Positions 25,368-45,525 of a stretch of DNA of 64,000 nucleotides are shown here, in pieces. Under the pieces are notes generated by a model. The model was not told the origin of the DNA and searched no databases. It saw only the letters and a list, made by a program, of their open reading frames with translations. Numbering within the stretch: the first letter of the stretch is position 1; each line of letters starts with the position of its first letter. The DNA comes from an uncultured Prochlorococcus sp. GTDB lineage: Bacteria > Cyanobacteriota > Cyanobacteriia > PCC-6307 > Cyanobiaceae. Where the stretch lies: the NCBI GenBank assembly GCA_902519235.1, contig CABYJE010000001.1, positions 124,001-188,000 of the forward strand. The letters run 5' to 3'. The position numbers and the translations under genes are program-made.

Positions 25368-25403
25368 CTAAATTTGCTCCATGAATTTAAATTTTTCACG
25401 TAA

Positions 25404-25598
25404 TTAAGAACTTGAAAACTTACTAGAAACTAATATTATTGTAACTAAAAGAGCTGGACCAAAAACTAGAAGAAAGATAAGAAAATTATTAATTATTAAA
25501 ACATTAGGATTCAGGTATCCAATAATTTTAAGTAATCCAGACAGGAAAAATGAAATCAGCCAAATAAAAAGGTATTTTAAATTTGCTTTATCAAACAA
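25404..25598 (-). CDS. Small hypothetical membrane protein
   Basis: A 64-residue protein with two hydrophobic segments (LFIWLISFFLSGLLKIIGYL and FLIFLLVFGPALLVTIILVSS) joined by a short NPNVLIINN loop. I do not recognise a named family. The frame appears to open with TTG and has no internal Met, so the start is uncertain. It sits 36 bp upstream of argG on the same strand, so it could share its transcript, and is divergent from the DUF3134 gene. Composition fits a membrane protein better than a random frame, but coding status is not proven. Confidence 0.5.
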   Translation of the reverse strand: MFDKANLKYLFIWLISFFLSGLLKIIGYLNPNVLIINNFLIFLLVFGPALLVTIILVSSKFSSS

Positions 25599-25651
25599 AG
25601 TTTTTCGTGTGCATCATTATGTATTATCTTATATATAGAACATAACCATTA

Positions 25652-25930
25652 ATGGACTCAAATAAACTAAAACTTAGATTAGAAGATATTTCTAAAGTCA
25701 ACCCTGCTTTAAGTTGCTATCACAGAGACGATCCAGCTCCTGTTTTACCATTAAGAGATGAACCTGATCTTCTATCTTGGCTTGAAAATACAGGAAGACT
25801 TGTTGCAGAAAAAGAGGGTGATTCACAAGAAATTAGTACGATTGAAGAAGAAGAACTATCAGCGCTAATGGGAGAAAAAGAAGATTATAAAACTGAAGAA
25901 GATCCTTCAGAAGATGATTGGGAAGATTAA
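25652..25930 (+). CDS. DUF3134 family protein
   Basis: A 92-residue soluble protein of a cyanobacteria-restricted family of unknown function. The conserved part is NPALSCYHRDDPAPVLPLRDEPDLLSWLENTGRLV (about residues 17-51). The second half is strongly acidic (EEEELSALMGEKEDYKTEEDPSEDDWED). It overlaps mraY by 17 bp, so the two are almost surely co-transcribed; this places it next to peptidoglycan synthesis but does not show a role. Confidence 0.83.
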   Translation: MDSNKLKLRLEDISKVNPALSCYHRDDPAPVLPLRDEPDLLSWLENTGRLVAEKEGDSQEISTIEEEELSALMGEKEDYKTEEDPSEDDWED

Positions 25931-35928: not shown

Positions 35929-37032
35929 ATGGCGTTATTAAATAAAATCAAAAATAAACTGCATATCAATTACAGAAAAAAAAGATGGCCAGGTCTAATT
36001 GAAGCTTATAAACAATACCTCCCAGTTACCAAAAAAACTCCTATTATCTCCCTAAACGAAGGAAATACACCGCTAATTCTTAGTACTTCAATAAGTAATT
36101 TAATTGGAAATGGTACAAAGGTTTTTTTAAAATATGATGGGCTAAATCCTACAGGATCTTTCAAAGATCGTGGAATGACTATGGCCATTAGCAAAGCAAA
36201 AGAAGAGGGTCGTGAAGCTGTAATTTGCGCAAGTACTGGAAATACTTCCGCTGCTGCTGCTGCATATGCTGCTAGAGGGGGTTTAAAACCTTATGTTTTA
36301 ATTCCAGAAGGATTTGTTGCTCAAGGAAAACTTGCACAGGCTTTAATGTATGGTGCAGAGATAATATCAATTAATGGAAACTTTGATAAAGCTCTTGAAA
36401 TTGTTAGAGATTTGTCCTCAGAACATCCAATAGAACTTGTTAATTCAGTGAATCCATATCGAATACAAGGCCAAAAAACAGCCGCTTTTGAAATTATTGA
36501 TGACTTAGGCATTGCACCTGATTGGCTTTGCATTCCCATGGGCAATGCGGGGAATATAACTGCCTATTGGTTAGGATTTAAAGAATATTCAAAAATAAGA
36601 AGAAATTTAAAATTACCCATTATGATGGGCTTTCAATCTGAAGGCTCTGCACCATTAGTTCAAAACATAGTAGTTAAAGATCCTGAAACTATAGCTACTG
36701 CAATAAGAATTGGGAATCCTGTTAATAGAGAAAAAGCAAAAAAAGTAAAAAAAGAAAGTAAAGGAGACTTTCAGTCAGTTACAGATGAAGAAATTATCAA
36801 TGCTTATAAAATTCTTGCTAAGGAAGGTGTATTTTGTGAACCTGCCAGCGCAGCATCTGTTGCAGGACTAATTAAAAACAAAAATAGAATCCAAAAGGAA
36901 TCAACTATTGTTTGTGTTCTTACTGGAAATGGCTTAAAAGATCCTGATTGCGCAATAAAAAACAATGATGCTATTTTCAGGAAAAATGTTGAACCTTCAT
37001 TAAAAAATATAACTAAAATCTTAGGATATTAA
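35929..37032 (+). CDS. thrC: Threonine synthase
   Basis: PLP enzyme converting O-phosphohomoserine to threonine. It shows [36 protein letters not shown] (PLP lysine in SFKDRG, about residue 82), [20 protein letters not shown] (phosphate loop) and VLTGNGLKD near the end. 367 aa matches the short bacterial/cyanobacterial form. It begins 5 bp after the DUF1400 gene and is the last gene before the proposed origin region. Confidence 0.97.
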
Positions 37033-37369
37033 AATCCAAAAAAAATAGTGTCTGTGGAAATCAAATAAAAACGAATCTCATTTGTTGAAAATTAGATAAT
37101 AAGAAATTCTATTTGTTGAATAAATTTAAAACTTTCGAATATAGAAAAAAATATTCAACAAATAAAAATTTTTTTACACATATTCTTTTCTTCGTAAACT
37201 AAGTAGGCAAGCTACATAATTTAAGAATTCCACAGTTCCCACAAAAACTACTACTACTATAATTTTTGTTTTATGTTTAATTTATTTATTAGAAAGAAGT
37301 AAAAAATAAATTTATTGAATTTAATTTACGAAAAAAGTATATTGTATTTGTAAAAAGTTCCAAATTGTG
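37033..37369 (+). other. Candidate replication origin (oriC) region between thrC and dnaN
   Basis: This is the only gene-free stretch longer than 300 bases. It is very AT-rich and lies directly upstream of dnaN, where Prochlorococcus genome numbering conventionally starts. TTTTACACA at 37172-37180 fits the DnaA-box pattern TTWTNCACA. TGTGGAAAT at 37053-37061 is the reverse of ATTTCCACA, one mismatch from it. AATTCCACA (37226) and GTTCCCACA (37235) are weaker. A 13-bp inverted repeat and a third copy of its core lie between them. No tRNA or convincing ORF is seen. Origin activity is an inference. Confidence 0.55.
37080..37164. repeat. Three ATTTGTTGAA elements, two of them as a 13-bp inverted repeat
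   Basis: ATTTGTTGAA occurs at 37080-37089 and 37111-37120, and its reverse complement TTCAACAAAT at 37154-37163. The last two are extended to a perfect inverted repeat, TATTTGTTGAATA (37110-37122) and TATTCAACAAATA (37152-37164), with a 29-nt spacer. It could be an origin iteron or protein-binding site. A thrC terminator is possible since a T run follows, but the low GC content and long loop make that weak. Confidence 0.7.
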
Positions 37370-38527
37370 ATGGAAATTATTTGTAATCAAAATGAATTAA
37401 ATAGTGCTATACAACTAGTAAGCAAAGCAGTTGCTTCAAGGCCAACGCATCCAATTCTTGCAAATATACTTTTAACAGCTGACGAAGGAACTAATAAAAT
37501 TAGCGTCACAGGATTTGATCTTAATTTAGGAATTCAAACTTCTTTTGATGGAACTGTTAAAAATAGTGGAGCTATTACTATACCTTCAAAACTTTTATCC
37601 GAAATAGTAAATAAACTACCTAATGAAACTCCTGTTTCTTTAGAAGTAGAAGAGAATTCAGATAATATCCTAATAAAAAGCGACAGAGGTTCTTTTAATC
37701 TTAAAGGGATCCCTTCTGATGAATATCCTAATTTACCATTTGTTGAAAGCGGTACTTCTTTGAATATTGACCCTAGTTCTTTTTTAAAGGCTTTAAAATC
37801 TACCATTTTTGCCAGTAGTAATGATGATTCAAAGCAACTACTCACAGGTGTCAATTTCACCTTCAAACCAAATTATTTAGAGTCTGCTTCTACAGATGGC
37901 CATAGATTGGCTGTTGCTTTAATTGGTAATGAAGAAAATATCGAAAACAAAGAAAACTTATCTGCAAATGTTGATGATTTATCGGTAACTATCCCAACTA
38001 GATCATTAAGAGAAATTGAAAAACTAGTATCTTTGAGAAGCTCAGAAAAATCAATAAAACTCTTCTATGATAAAGGCCAAGTAGTCTTTATTTCTTCTAA
38101 TCAAATAATTACTACAAGAACTTTAGAAGGTACTTATCCTAATTATTCACTATTAATTCCTGATTCTTTTTCTAAAATTCTGAATTTTAATACAAAAAAA
38201 TTAATTGATGCATTAGAAAGAATAGCTGTTTTAGCTGATCAGCAAAGTAGTGTTGTAAAGATTAAATTAGATGATACAGATTTAGCTTCAATCAGCGCAG
38301 ATGCCCAGGATATTGGAAATGCAAATGAATCAATACCTGTTTCTTATTCTGGAGAAAATTTTGATATAGCATTTAACGTAAGATATTTGTTAGAAGGTTT
38401 AAAAGTTATCGCTTCTGAAAATGTACTTTTAAAGTGTAATATTGCAACTACTCCAGCTGTTTTTGTACCAGAAGATAATCTTAATTCTTTTACTTATTTA
38501 GTTATGCCTGTACAGGTTCGTTCTTAA
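37370..38527 (+). CDS. dnaN: DNA polymerase III beta subunit (sliding clamp)
   Basis: Ring-shaped processivity clamp for the replicative polymerase. The three-domain clamp fold is recognised from MEIICNQNELNSAIQLVSKAVASRPTHPILANILL, GSFNLKGIPSDEYPNLP, LLTGVNFTF, STDGHRLAV, RTLEGTYPNYSLLIP and the C-terminal TYLVMPVQVRS. The ORF track starts at GTG 37367; I chose the adjacent ATG 37370, giving 385 aa. It heads the series dnaN, PRC-barrel, purL, purF in one direction away from the origin candidate. Confidence 0.97.
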   Translation: MEIICNQNELNSAIQLVSKAVASRPTHPILANILLTADEGTNKISVTGFDLNLGIQTSFDGTVKNSGAITIPSKLLSEIVNKLPNETPVSLEVEENSDNILIKSDRGSFNLKGIPSDEYPNLPFVESGTSLNIDPSSFLKALKSTIFASSNDDSKQLLTGVNFTFKPNYLESASTDGHRLAVALIGNEENIENKENLSANVDDLSVTIPTRSLREIEKLVSLRSSEKSIKLFYDKGQVVFISSNQIITTRTLEGTYPNYSLLIPDSFSKILNFNTKKLIDALERIAVLADQQSSVVKIKLDDTDLASISADAQDIGNANESIPVSYSGENFDIAFNVRYLLEGLKVIASENVLLKCNIATTPAVFVPEDNLNSFTYLVMPVQVRS

Positions 38528-41626: not shown

Positions 41627-43087
41627 ATGTGCGGAATAGTTGGAATCGTTTCTTCAAATGATGTAAATCAACAAATTTACGATAGTCTTTTGCTTTTGCA
41701 GCATAGAGGTCAAGACTCAACAGGTATAGCAACAATGGAAAATACTGTTTTTCATATACATAAGGTTAAAGGTCAGGTTAATACTGCTTATAGAACTAGA
41801 GATATGAGGAATTTAATAGGCAAAATTGGATTAGGTCATGTTAGGTATGCAACAAAGGGATCAGCAGAAAGTGTAGAAGAAGCACAGCCTTTTTATGTTA
41901 ATGCTCCTTATGGAATTGTTTTGATACATAATGGAAATTTGACTAATACCAGAGATTTAGAAAAACAGTTATTTAACGTCGATAAGCGGCATACAAATTC
42001 TTCAAGTGATACTGAAATGTTATTAAATGTATTTGCGACAGAATTACAAGAACAAATTCATAATCAAGAATTAGAACCTGATATTATTTTTAATGCGGTC
42101 AAATCTTTACATAGAAGAATTCAGGGATCATATGCTTCAATCGCCCTAATTTCAGGACATGGTTTATTAGCATTTAGAGATCCTTTTGGTATTAGGCCTT
42201 TAGTTATAGGGAAAAGACTTTCATTAACCACAAAAAAAGAAGAATGGATGGTTGCTAGCGAATCTCTAGTACTTGAGAATAATGATTATCAAGTAGTGAG
42301 AGATGTAGATCCAGGAGAAGCTGTTTTTATAAATCTTAATGGGGAGTTTTTCTCTAAGCAATGTTCTGAAAATCCAATGTTATTTCCCTGTGCTTTTGAA
42401 TATGTTTACTTAGCTAGGCCAGATTCAATTATGAATGGAATTTCAGTCTATAAAGCTCGTTTAAAGATGGGAGATTATTTAGCAGAGACAATAAAAGAAA
42501 CAATCAATTCTGGAGATATTGATGTAGTTATGCCTATTCCTGATTCTTCGCGACCCGCGGCAATGCAAGTTGCAAGACAGTTAGGGATAGAATATAGGGA
42601 AGGTTTTTTTAAAAATAGATATGTTGGCAGAACATTCATAATGCCTGGTCAGCAGAAACGTAAGAAATCAGTAAGGCAAAAATTAAATGCCATGAGTGCA
42701 GAGTTTAAAAATAAAAATGTATTAATTGTTGATGACTCGATAGTTAGAGGTACTACTTCAAAAGAAATTGTCCAGATGGCTAAAGATGCAGGAGCAAATA
42801 AAGTTTTTTTTACATCAGCAGCCCCTCCTGTTCGTTATCCTCATGTTTATGGAATTAATATGCCTAATAGAGATGAATTAATAGCTCATAATAGGACAAT
42901 AAGTGAAATCGCCGATAAACTTGAAATTGATAACCTTGTTTATCAAAGTGTTGAAAGTCTGCGTAAATCTATAATAAGTGATTCTTCGATTAAAGATTTA
43001 GAGATGAGTTGTTTTACCGGTAATTATGTCACTGGAACAGTAAATCAAGAATACTTAAATTGGGTTGAAAATGAATATAAATCTTAG
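41627..43087 (+). CDS. purF: Amidophosphoribosyltransferase
   Basis: First committed enzyme of purine synthesis, forming phosphoribosylamine from PRPP and glutamine. The N-terminal nucleophile glutaminase begins [10 protein letters not shown] (Cys2), with [14 protein letters not shown] and [12 protein letters not shown]. The phosphoribosyltransferase part has the PRPP loop [18 protein letters not shown]. 486 aa is normal. It follows purL by 47 bp and overlaps the convergent topoisomerase gene by 4 bp. Confidence 0.97.
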
Positions 43088-45525
43088 TCGAGAAAGTTTT
43101 CAAGTCGGAAACAATTTTCAAGGTATTCATCATTATCTAATTTTAAAAAATCAATTAAAAAGTTTGATTTATTGGATTTGAAATTTAATTTATTTAGGTC
43201 CAATCTTGCAGATTTATTTTTATTAGTTTCAATATCAAGGTAATGATTACTTGCCATTATTTTGAGGAAGTAATCGTTTTTAAGTTGGGTTTTTTCATTC
43301 AAATATCCCAAACTGTAATCATTTGAGCAGTAAATTTCATTACTATTTATGCAAAAGATTTTTCCTTGTTTAGATATCAAAAAAATATTTTCTCCATCAT
43401 GGTATGTACAACAAGAAACAATTTTTTCACTTGGTAAAAGTTTTGCAATTATTAATCCTTGGGATTGTTTAGAAGTTGGCGTTAAAAATTTATTTGATAA
43501 ATTAAATCTAAAAATTCTTCCTATCGAGGTTAATATTATTAAATCTTTGCTTTCATTAGAAATAAAAGAATCAATTGTTTTTAAATTATTTTTTAATTTT
43601 GTAATAGTGAAAGATCTATTACTTTTAATCATATCTTCATCAAATAAAACTTTTTTAAATCTTCCATCTGAATTCAAGATGCATAAATAATTTTTAATTT
43701 CTTTTTTAATTGAATGAAAATTTATTATTTCACTAGGATGAATATTTCCAAGAATTTTATTATCTAATTTATAGTCTTTATTAATATTTGATTCCCAATC
43801 AATGTTAAAAACTTTCCCTGTATTTGTAATTCCAATTAATTTTATATTTTTTTCAATATTGCATATAAATTTTTGAATATTTTTATTATCTATAATTTTA
43901 TTTACAATCTCAAATGATTTTTTGTAATTACCTAAAATCATCCTTTTTAAATAAAGTCTATTGTCTATGTATAATTTTGTTTTTTTATTTATAAATTCTT
44001 CTAATATCTGATTATTAATTGTTTCTAATTCTTCATTTTGATTTATATTTTTAAGAACTTTTGTTCTTCTTTTTACATTATATTTTTTCTTTAAAAGTAA
44101 TAATTCTTCTATAAGTAACTCAAGTAATAATTTTCTTTCGTTCAATAATTTTTGAAGATAATTCTTTTTCTCTCCTAAAATTTTTATTTCATCATCTATT
44201 TGATTTCTTTCAAGATTCGTTATTTTTTTTAGTGGCATTTCTAAAACTGAATGTGCTTGTTTTTCACTGAAGAAAAAATTTTCAATCAATTTTGATTTAG
44301 CTTCTGCAATATTGTTTGATTCTTCAATAATTGTGATTATTTTTTTTATATCTTTTGTCGCCTTAGATAAACCTTCTAATATTTCAAGTTTCTCAAGTGT
44401 GTTTTTTAAAAAATAATTAGTTCTTTTTCTAATTGTTTCTTCTCGAAATTCAATAAAATAGTTTAGATATTGCTTTAAGTTTAGTTGGATAGGTTTGCCT
44501 TTAATTAAAGCTAAAAATATGGCACCAAAATTGGTTTGCAAGGTTGTTTTTTTATATAAATTAGAAATTACAAGTTCAGTATTAGACTCTTTTTTTAACT
44601 CTATTACAATTCTCATTCCATCTCTGTCACTTTCATCTCTAATATCAGAAATTCCATTTATTTTGCCTGTATTTACAAGTTCAGCTAATTTTTCAATCCA
44701 GCCTGCTTTATTGATTTGATAGGGAAGTTCAGTAATGATTAATGCATTTTTTTTATGTTTACCTTTGCCCAAATTTATTTCCTCTGTATTTATGACTCCT
44801 CTAATTGTTATTGATCCTTTTCCCGTTTCGTAAAGTTCTTCTATTGATTCACTATGAATTAATTCTCCGCCTGTTGGAAAATCAGGTCCTTTAATAATAT
44901 TAGAGAGTTTTTTATTATTAATATCTTTATTTTTAATTACGGAAATTAAACCATCCACTATTTCTCCGAGGTTATGAGGTGGAATGTTTGTTGCCATGCC
45001 AACAGCAATACCTGATGATCCATTCAATAATAAAAATGGAAGTTGAGCTGGTAGGACATCTGGTTCTTTTTGTGAACCATCAAAGTTATTAGAGAAATTT
45101 ACTGTATTCGATCCAATCTCTTCAAGAAATCCTTGATGAGCTATTGGAGCTAATCTTGTTTCAGTGTATCTCATTGCTGCAGGGGGATCATTATCTACTG
45201 ATCCAAAATTCCCGTGTCCGTCTAGAGTTGGGTATTTAGTTGAAAAATTTTGTACTAGTCTTACTAGCGCGTCATATACAGCTTGATCTCCATGAGGATG
45301 GTACTTACCAAGTACATCTCCAACAACTCTTGCACACTTTCTAAATGGTCTATCAGGGGTTAAACCTAATTCATGCATCGCATATAGTATTCTTCTCTGG
45401 ACAGGCTTAAGGCCATCTCTTGCATCGGGAAGAGCACGGCCAACTATTACACTCATTGCATACTCTAGATAAGAACGTTGCATTTCTTCTTGGAGCGAGA
45501 TAGAAGTAAAATTATTCTTATCCAT
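43084..45525 (-). CDS. Type IIA topoisomerase subunit A (GyrA/ParC family)
   Basis: DNA-cleaving subunit of gyrase or topoisomerase IV. The N-terminal winged-helix/tower part is well conserved: [84 protein letters not shown] (catalytic Tyr) and [22 protein letters not shown]. From about residue 480 it becomes K/N/I-rich and divergent. I find no GyrA box (QRRGGKG); the nearest counterpart is [14 protein letters not shown]. The quinolone-pocket Ser position is Gln ([10 protein letters not shown]). It may be a ParC-like or degenerate second A subunit. 813 aa. Confidence 0.9.

Follow-up and report, generated by a model that had tools for sequence, protein, structure and literature searches.

In Bacillus subtilis, dnaA adjoins dnaN, and boxes #6 and #7 of oriC form a tandem pair that is followed by a short spacer, 3'-GAT-5' DnaA-trios and an AT-rich stretch. 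Cyanobacteria, unlike B. subtilis, have dnaA elsewhere than dnaN (PMC7198777), and origins adjacent to dnaN with TTTTCCACA boxes are general among them (PMC4674748). The oriC of S. elongatus PCC 7942 is likewise dnaN-adjacent, with tandem boxes and then trios (PMC8287927; PMC7198777); according to the work cited in PMC7198777 (Watanabe 2012, Ohbayashi 2016), this origin was located near dnaN by experiment, and the dnaA of S. elongatus is essential. A basal unwinding system has been defined as a DnaA box no more than 16 bp from at least three trios (3'-NAN-5') and has been demonstrated in vitro for several species, among them S. elongatus, whose boxes and trios are unwound by its own DnaA (PMC8287927). 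Cyanothece ATCC 51142 also has its oriC beside dnaN, with TTTTCCACA-type boxes, but differs in having two chromosomes with three boxes each and a predicted TTATCAACA box at the second origin (PMC4674748). In some cyanobacteria, replication dispenses with DnaA and starts at multiple origins (PMC7198777).

The location of the Prochlorococcus origin is already known, since it has been published for Prochlorococcus and dnaN-adjacent origins are general in cyanobacteria (PMC4674748). A 2010 report placed the predicted oriC of cultured Prochlorococcus between threonine synthase on the 5' side and dnaN on the 3' side, with DnaA boxes nearby (PMC2836286); an earlier note on our DNA had likewise pointed to the agreement with Prochlorococcus genome numbering. 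That prediction was made by sliding-window GC skew, and the main passages of the report mention neither a site map nor a trio element. Our modest addition is a map of the sites, together with the trio element of this clade and the CAACA sites, which the main passages of these papers do not describe; their supplementary tables may well list them.

We analyzed a window of 64,000 nucleotides (G000:C1:124001-188000) from a genome whose nearest named relatives are single-cell Prochlorococcus genomes. Because the source assembly (56 contigs) is only 71% complete, relatives were used for whole-genome tests: G172, the closest complete relative (1,641,879 bp, DnaN 98% identical), and G220, whose record starts elsewhere than dnaN. 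We infer that the window genome is of the high-light type and G220 of the low-light type, the criteria being DnaN identity, GC content and genome size. Since the strand-composition switch, the excess of DnaA boxes and a near-invariant box-trio element agree, we conclude with near certainty that the thrC-dnaN gap is oriC, the bidirectional origin of the chromosome. The earlier note had proposed the same, and its proposal is borne out by the orientation-corrected switch, the box cluster and the conserved trio element.

The features by which we judged oriC were adjacency to dnaN, a switch of replication-strand composition bias at the site, a DnaA-box cluster above chance, an AT-rich unwinding region beside the boxes, a functional DnaA in the genome and, for cyanobacteria, exact TTTTCCACA boxes. 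The gap adjoins dnaN, as noted earlier, and ends just before the conserved ATG at 37370 (Table 1). It is 337 bp long and, as had been said, very AT-rich (20.5% GC versus 31.2% for the window), which ranks it among the 1.7% of 337-bp windows that are richest in AT. The claim that it is the longest gene-free stretch holds when ORFs of at least 40 or at least 60 aa are counted and fails at a limit of 100 aa, where a 546-bp gap at 25368-25913 exceeds it; a small gene or RNA may sit in that longer stretch.

Table 1. Features of the thrC-dnaN region, with predicted DnaA sites (positions in the window)
Feature	Position	Strand	Remarks
thrC-like PLP enzyme (threonine synthase)	35929-37032	+	PF00291, E 5.9e-75
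Intergenic region, almost certainly oriC	37033-37369		between thrC and dnaN; without ORF; strand-bias switch
DnaA box S1, ATTTCCACA	37053-37061	-	1 mismatch to TTTTCCACA; only positions 1-3 vary in 84 sequences
Probable DnaA box S2, TTTTCAACA	37083-37091	-	CAACA core; identical in 76/84; TTTTCCACA in one relative
Possible DnaA box S3, TATTCAACA	37114-37122	-	identical in 65/84; left arm of 27-nt inverted repeat
Possible DnaA box S4, TATTCAACA	37152-37160	+	identical in 61/84; right arm of 27-nt inverted repeat
DnaA box S5, TTTTACACA	37172-37180	+	76 bp upstream of trios; relatives have TTTTACACA, TTTTTCACA or TTTTCCACA
DnaA box S6, AATTCCACA	37226-37234	+	first of tandem pair; 22 bp upstream of trios
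DnaA box S7, GTTCCCACA	37235-37243	+	13 bp upstream of trios; GTTTCCACA in some relatives
4-bp spacer	37244-37247	+	AAAA here, mostly AGAA in relatives
Four DnaA-trios, CTACTACTACTA	37248-37259	+	5'-CTA-3', that is 3'-GAT-5' on the opposite strand; identical in 70/84
Probable unwinding region	37260-37335		10.5% GC; adjoins trios; putative function
dnaN leader	37311-37369	+	hardly varies among 84 sequences; probable promoter and ribosome-binding region
dnaN, DNA polymerase III beta clamp	37370-38527	+	three Pfam beta-clamp domains

To locate the strand switch, skew at fourfold-degenerate sites was regressed on gene orientation with one or two breakpoints. This regression replaced raw cumulative GC skew because the minimum of the latter missed dnaN by 53 kb in G172 and by 41 kb in the window's own contig, in both cases to the left; base composition depends strongly on gene orientation, and raw skew, thus confounded, misplaces the origin and was rejected as a locator. 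The search for a cumulative GC minimum at the gap that the earlier note had recommended would therefore have misled. In G172, one T-A breakpoint was at 0 (dnaN) and the other, of opposite sense, lay half a chromosome away, near 830-840 kb. At gene resolution the best T-A break of G172 fell exactly between thrC and dnaN, with a deviance drop of 161 (30 permutations reached no more than 11.9) and a bootstrap 5-95% range of -2.1 to -0.2 kb. The best break in G220 was again exactly thrC/dnaN (322 against 11.9 permuted). In the window's own contig it lay one gene left of the gap (deviance drop 89.5, permuted 15.8; bootstrap range -3.9 to -1.4 kb), and on a coarser grid the gap was statistically tied with the best break, within one to two deviance units.

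The fourfold-site switch was strong for T-A and weak for G-C. Fourfold G-C skew gave no stable breakpoint, its bootstrap spread reaching tens to hundreds of kb, so that it did not locate the origin and was likewise rejected as a locator on its own. The earlier impression of a strand bias changing at the gap is right for A/T, and its author's caution that this was only spot-checked was apt for GC, since raw GC skew points elsewhere. A search for a dif site at the terminus, with an E. coli-like dif sequence, gave no convincing match near 830-840 kb. As a side observation, the two genomes of high-light (HL) type, G172 and our own contig, carry a clear leading/lagging T-A asymmetry at orientation-corrected fourfold sites and little G-C asymmetry, whereas PMC2836286 describes the synonymous codons of HL Prochlorococcus as without strand-specific asymmetry.

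DnaA boxes were counted in the gap against composition-matched sequences simulated from its own dinucleotides. We found three sites with at most one mismatch to TTTTCCACA (0.21 expected, p 0.0005), ten with at most two (2.7 expected, p 0.001) and five matches to WTTCMACA (0.11 expected, p 0.001 or below), counts that overlap in part and are not independent, WTTCMACA having been picked after the sites were seen. The box scan proposed earlier thus yields sites above chance. The 11 two-mismatch sites at this place in G172 are the genome maximum for any 337-bp window. Exact TTTTCCACA is absent from the gap; its membership among cyanobacterial origins stands because the exact box is usual and not defining, exceptions being listed (PMC4674748). 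The S. elongatus boxes follow TTTTCCACA, whereas all seven sites here (S1-S7) differ from it by one or two bases, three of them having a CAACA core, and the near-matches occupy conserved offsets in the gap. The four sites named in the earlier note (S1, S5, S6 and S7) are all present; it had overlooked the trio element and the CAACA-core sites S2-S4.

Conservation was followed in an alignment of 84 distinct Prochlorococcus sequences. The DnaA-like sites, whose loss in related strains the earlier note would have counted against an origin, are kept in these relatives, but within-clade conservation alone cannot mark them out, since identity to the consensus averages 91% over the entire gap. S1 is an exact TTTTCCACA in two of the 84. 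S5 changes at the fifth position, which is free in TTWTNCACA: 47 sequences have A there, 22 have T and most others C, as expected of a DnaA box. S3 and S4 lie one in each arm of an inverted repeat organized around them (37101-37127/37147-37173; 27 nt, 81% complementary, 19 nt between arms).

Downstream of these sites, positions 37226-37259 read AATTCCACA-GTTCCCACA-AAAA-CTACTACTACTA, an abutting box pair, a 4-bp spacer and four trios. With its pair at -22/-13 and four CTA trios, this arrangement fits the published definition of a basal unwinding system. It is nearly invariant among the 84 sequences, the departures in the trio block being mostly CTA-to-TTA changes, and a single copy is present in each of G172 (1.64 Mb) and the window's own contig. 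By its composition, the adjoining stretch provides the AT-rich region expected beside the boxes. By analogy with S. elongatus and B. subtilis, the element is very probably the unwinding site.

Wider comparison used the DNA upstream of dnaN in a further 60 cyanobacterial genomes, drawn from the same family and class, 38 of which have a trio-like block. Relative to that block, boxes with at most one mismatch stand at -22 in 21/38 loci, at -13 in 18/38 and, with 2 bp of play, at -74 to -76 in 25/38; those of the window are at exactly -22, -13 and -76. The match across cyanobacteria is better than random placement for the seven-site grid (p 0.0005) and also for the five sites that are left when the tandem pair is set aside (p 0.005), the latter effect being driven mainly by the -76 box. 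The offsets of S1-S4 are each weakly matched outside the clade. Loci L229, L241, L250, L252, L256-L260, L262 and L263, which belong to the same family and are mostly high in GC, have no recognizable DnaA-trio upstream of dnaN; divergence of the element or relocation of the origin may explain this.

The dnaA gene of the window genome lies on contig C4, away from the gap, and encodes in one intact frame a predicted DnaA with all expected domains (PF00308, PF08299, PF11638). When its recognition segment, GGKDHTTVMYA, is aligned with DnaA DNA-binding domains of known structure (8btg, 1j1v and 3pvp), the DHTTV core is unchanged. An altered recognition segment as the cause of the unusual boxes was rejected, the segment being standard. 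By analogy with the systems above, we propose that this DnaA would bind the boxes in the gap, with S1 and S5, and probably S2-S4, helping to recruit it. The tandem pair S6-S7 would then pass DnaA onto one strand at the trios, and stretching of that strand would open the neighboring 10.5% GC region, after which the helicase could be loaded and forks depart both ways. The origin of high-light Prochlorococcus could be a stripped-down one, with seven imperfect boxes (three of them CAACA), an almost fixed unwinding element and a standard DnaA segment, and initiation may rest mainly on weak boxes and the trio element; we put this forward tentatively, at slightly below even chances.

Counted against the origin reading are the raw GC minimum 41-53 kb away, the uninformative fourfold GC skew, the zero exact TTTTCCACA boxes, the DnaA-independent replication of some cyanobacteria and the incomplete assembly. 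One could suppose that the sites merely form a DnaA-controlled promoter or leader of dnaN and that the origin lies elsewhere: the leader is highly conserved and abuts dnaN, and promoter control by DnaA is known from other bacteria (PMC7198777). A weak promoter-like match at 37315-37343 is of a kind that shuffled sequences give no less often. Yet the strand switch is here in three genomes, its compensating switch is half a chromosome off, and the sole box-plus-trio element of G172 is at this place, which makes a mere promoter very improbable. Nor do we give much weight to replication that is DnaA-independent with dispersed starts, in which case the gap would be left over from an origin used by an ancestor. 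Asynchronous replication from multiple origins occurs in Synechocystis 6803 and Nostoc 7120, and some cyanobacteria tolerate deletion of dnaA (PMC7198777), but here dnaA is present and intact, and the sharp single switch at the gap, together with boxes and trios that hardly vary across the clade, argues for continuing use and selection; the chance of a relic is slighter still.

The question is closer for S2-S4, whose CAACA repeats might instead be sites for some other regulator or fold into a hairpin within the thrC transcript. Their core is off consensus, they form inverted repeats, and outside the clade their offsets recur at only 3, 8 and 6 of 38 loci, respectively (2 bp allowed). We nevertheless read them as DnaA boxes because CAACA and CCACA are naturally swapped at the same place in relatives: TTTTCCACA replaces S2 in one, GTTTCAACA stands at S7 in two, and TTTTCAACA occupies the -76 position of a family member (L236). 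An Rfam search of the gap gave no match and a terminator search no terminator-like site, which also tells against these alternatives. On this sequence evidence the conserved S2-S4 are somewhat more probably DnaA sites, and a different role, although a real contender, is the less likely one.

An exact origin map gives the correct anchor for growth-rate (peak-to-trough) methods in the most abundant photosynthetic organism, for which raw GC skew is shown to misplace the origin by 40-50 kb. It also offers a handful of DnaA sites that lend themselves to testing, possible variant boxes included, for a minimal free-living cyanobacterium.

Some further observations concern the surroundings of the gap. 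A phage origin was rejected, as the sole match was 41 nt inside the thrC coding sequence. This segment (36908-36948) is 92.7% identical to two unannotated 5249-bp "Listeria phage" records (OR847136, OR848538), which are probably mislabelled or contaminated. Farther right, directly beyond a purF-like gene, positions 43001-45000 are unusually AT-rich (23.6% GC) and their skew is reversed.
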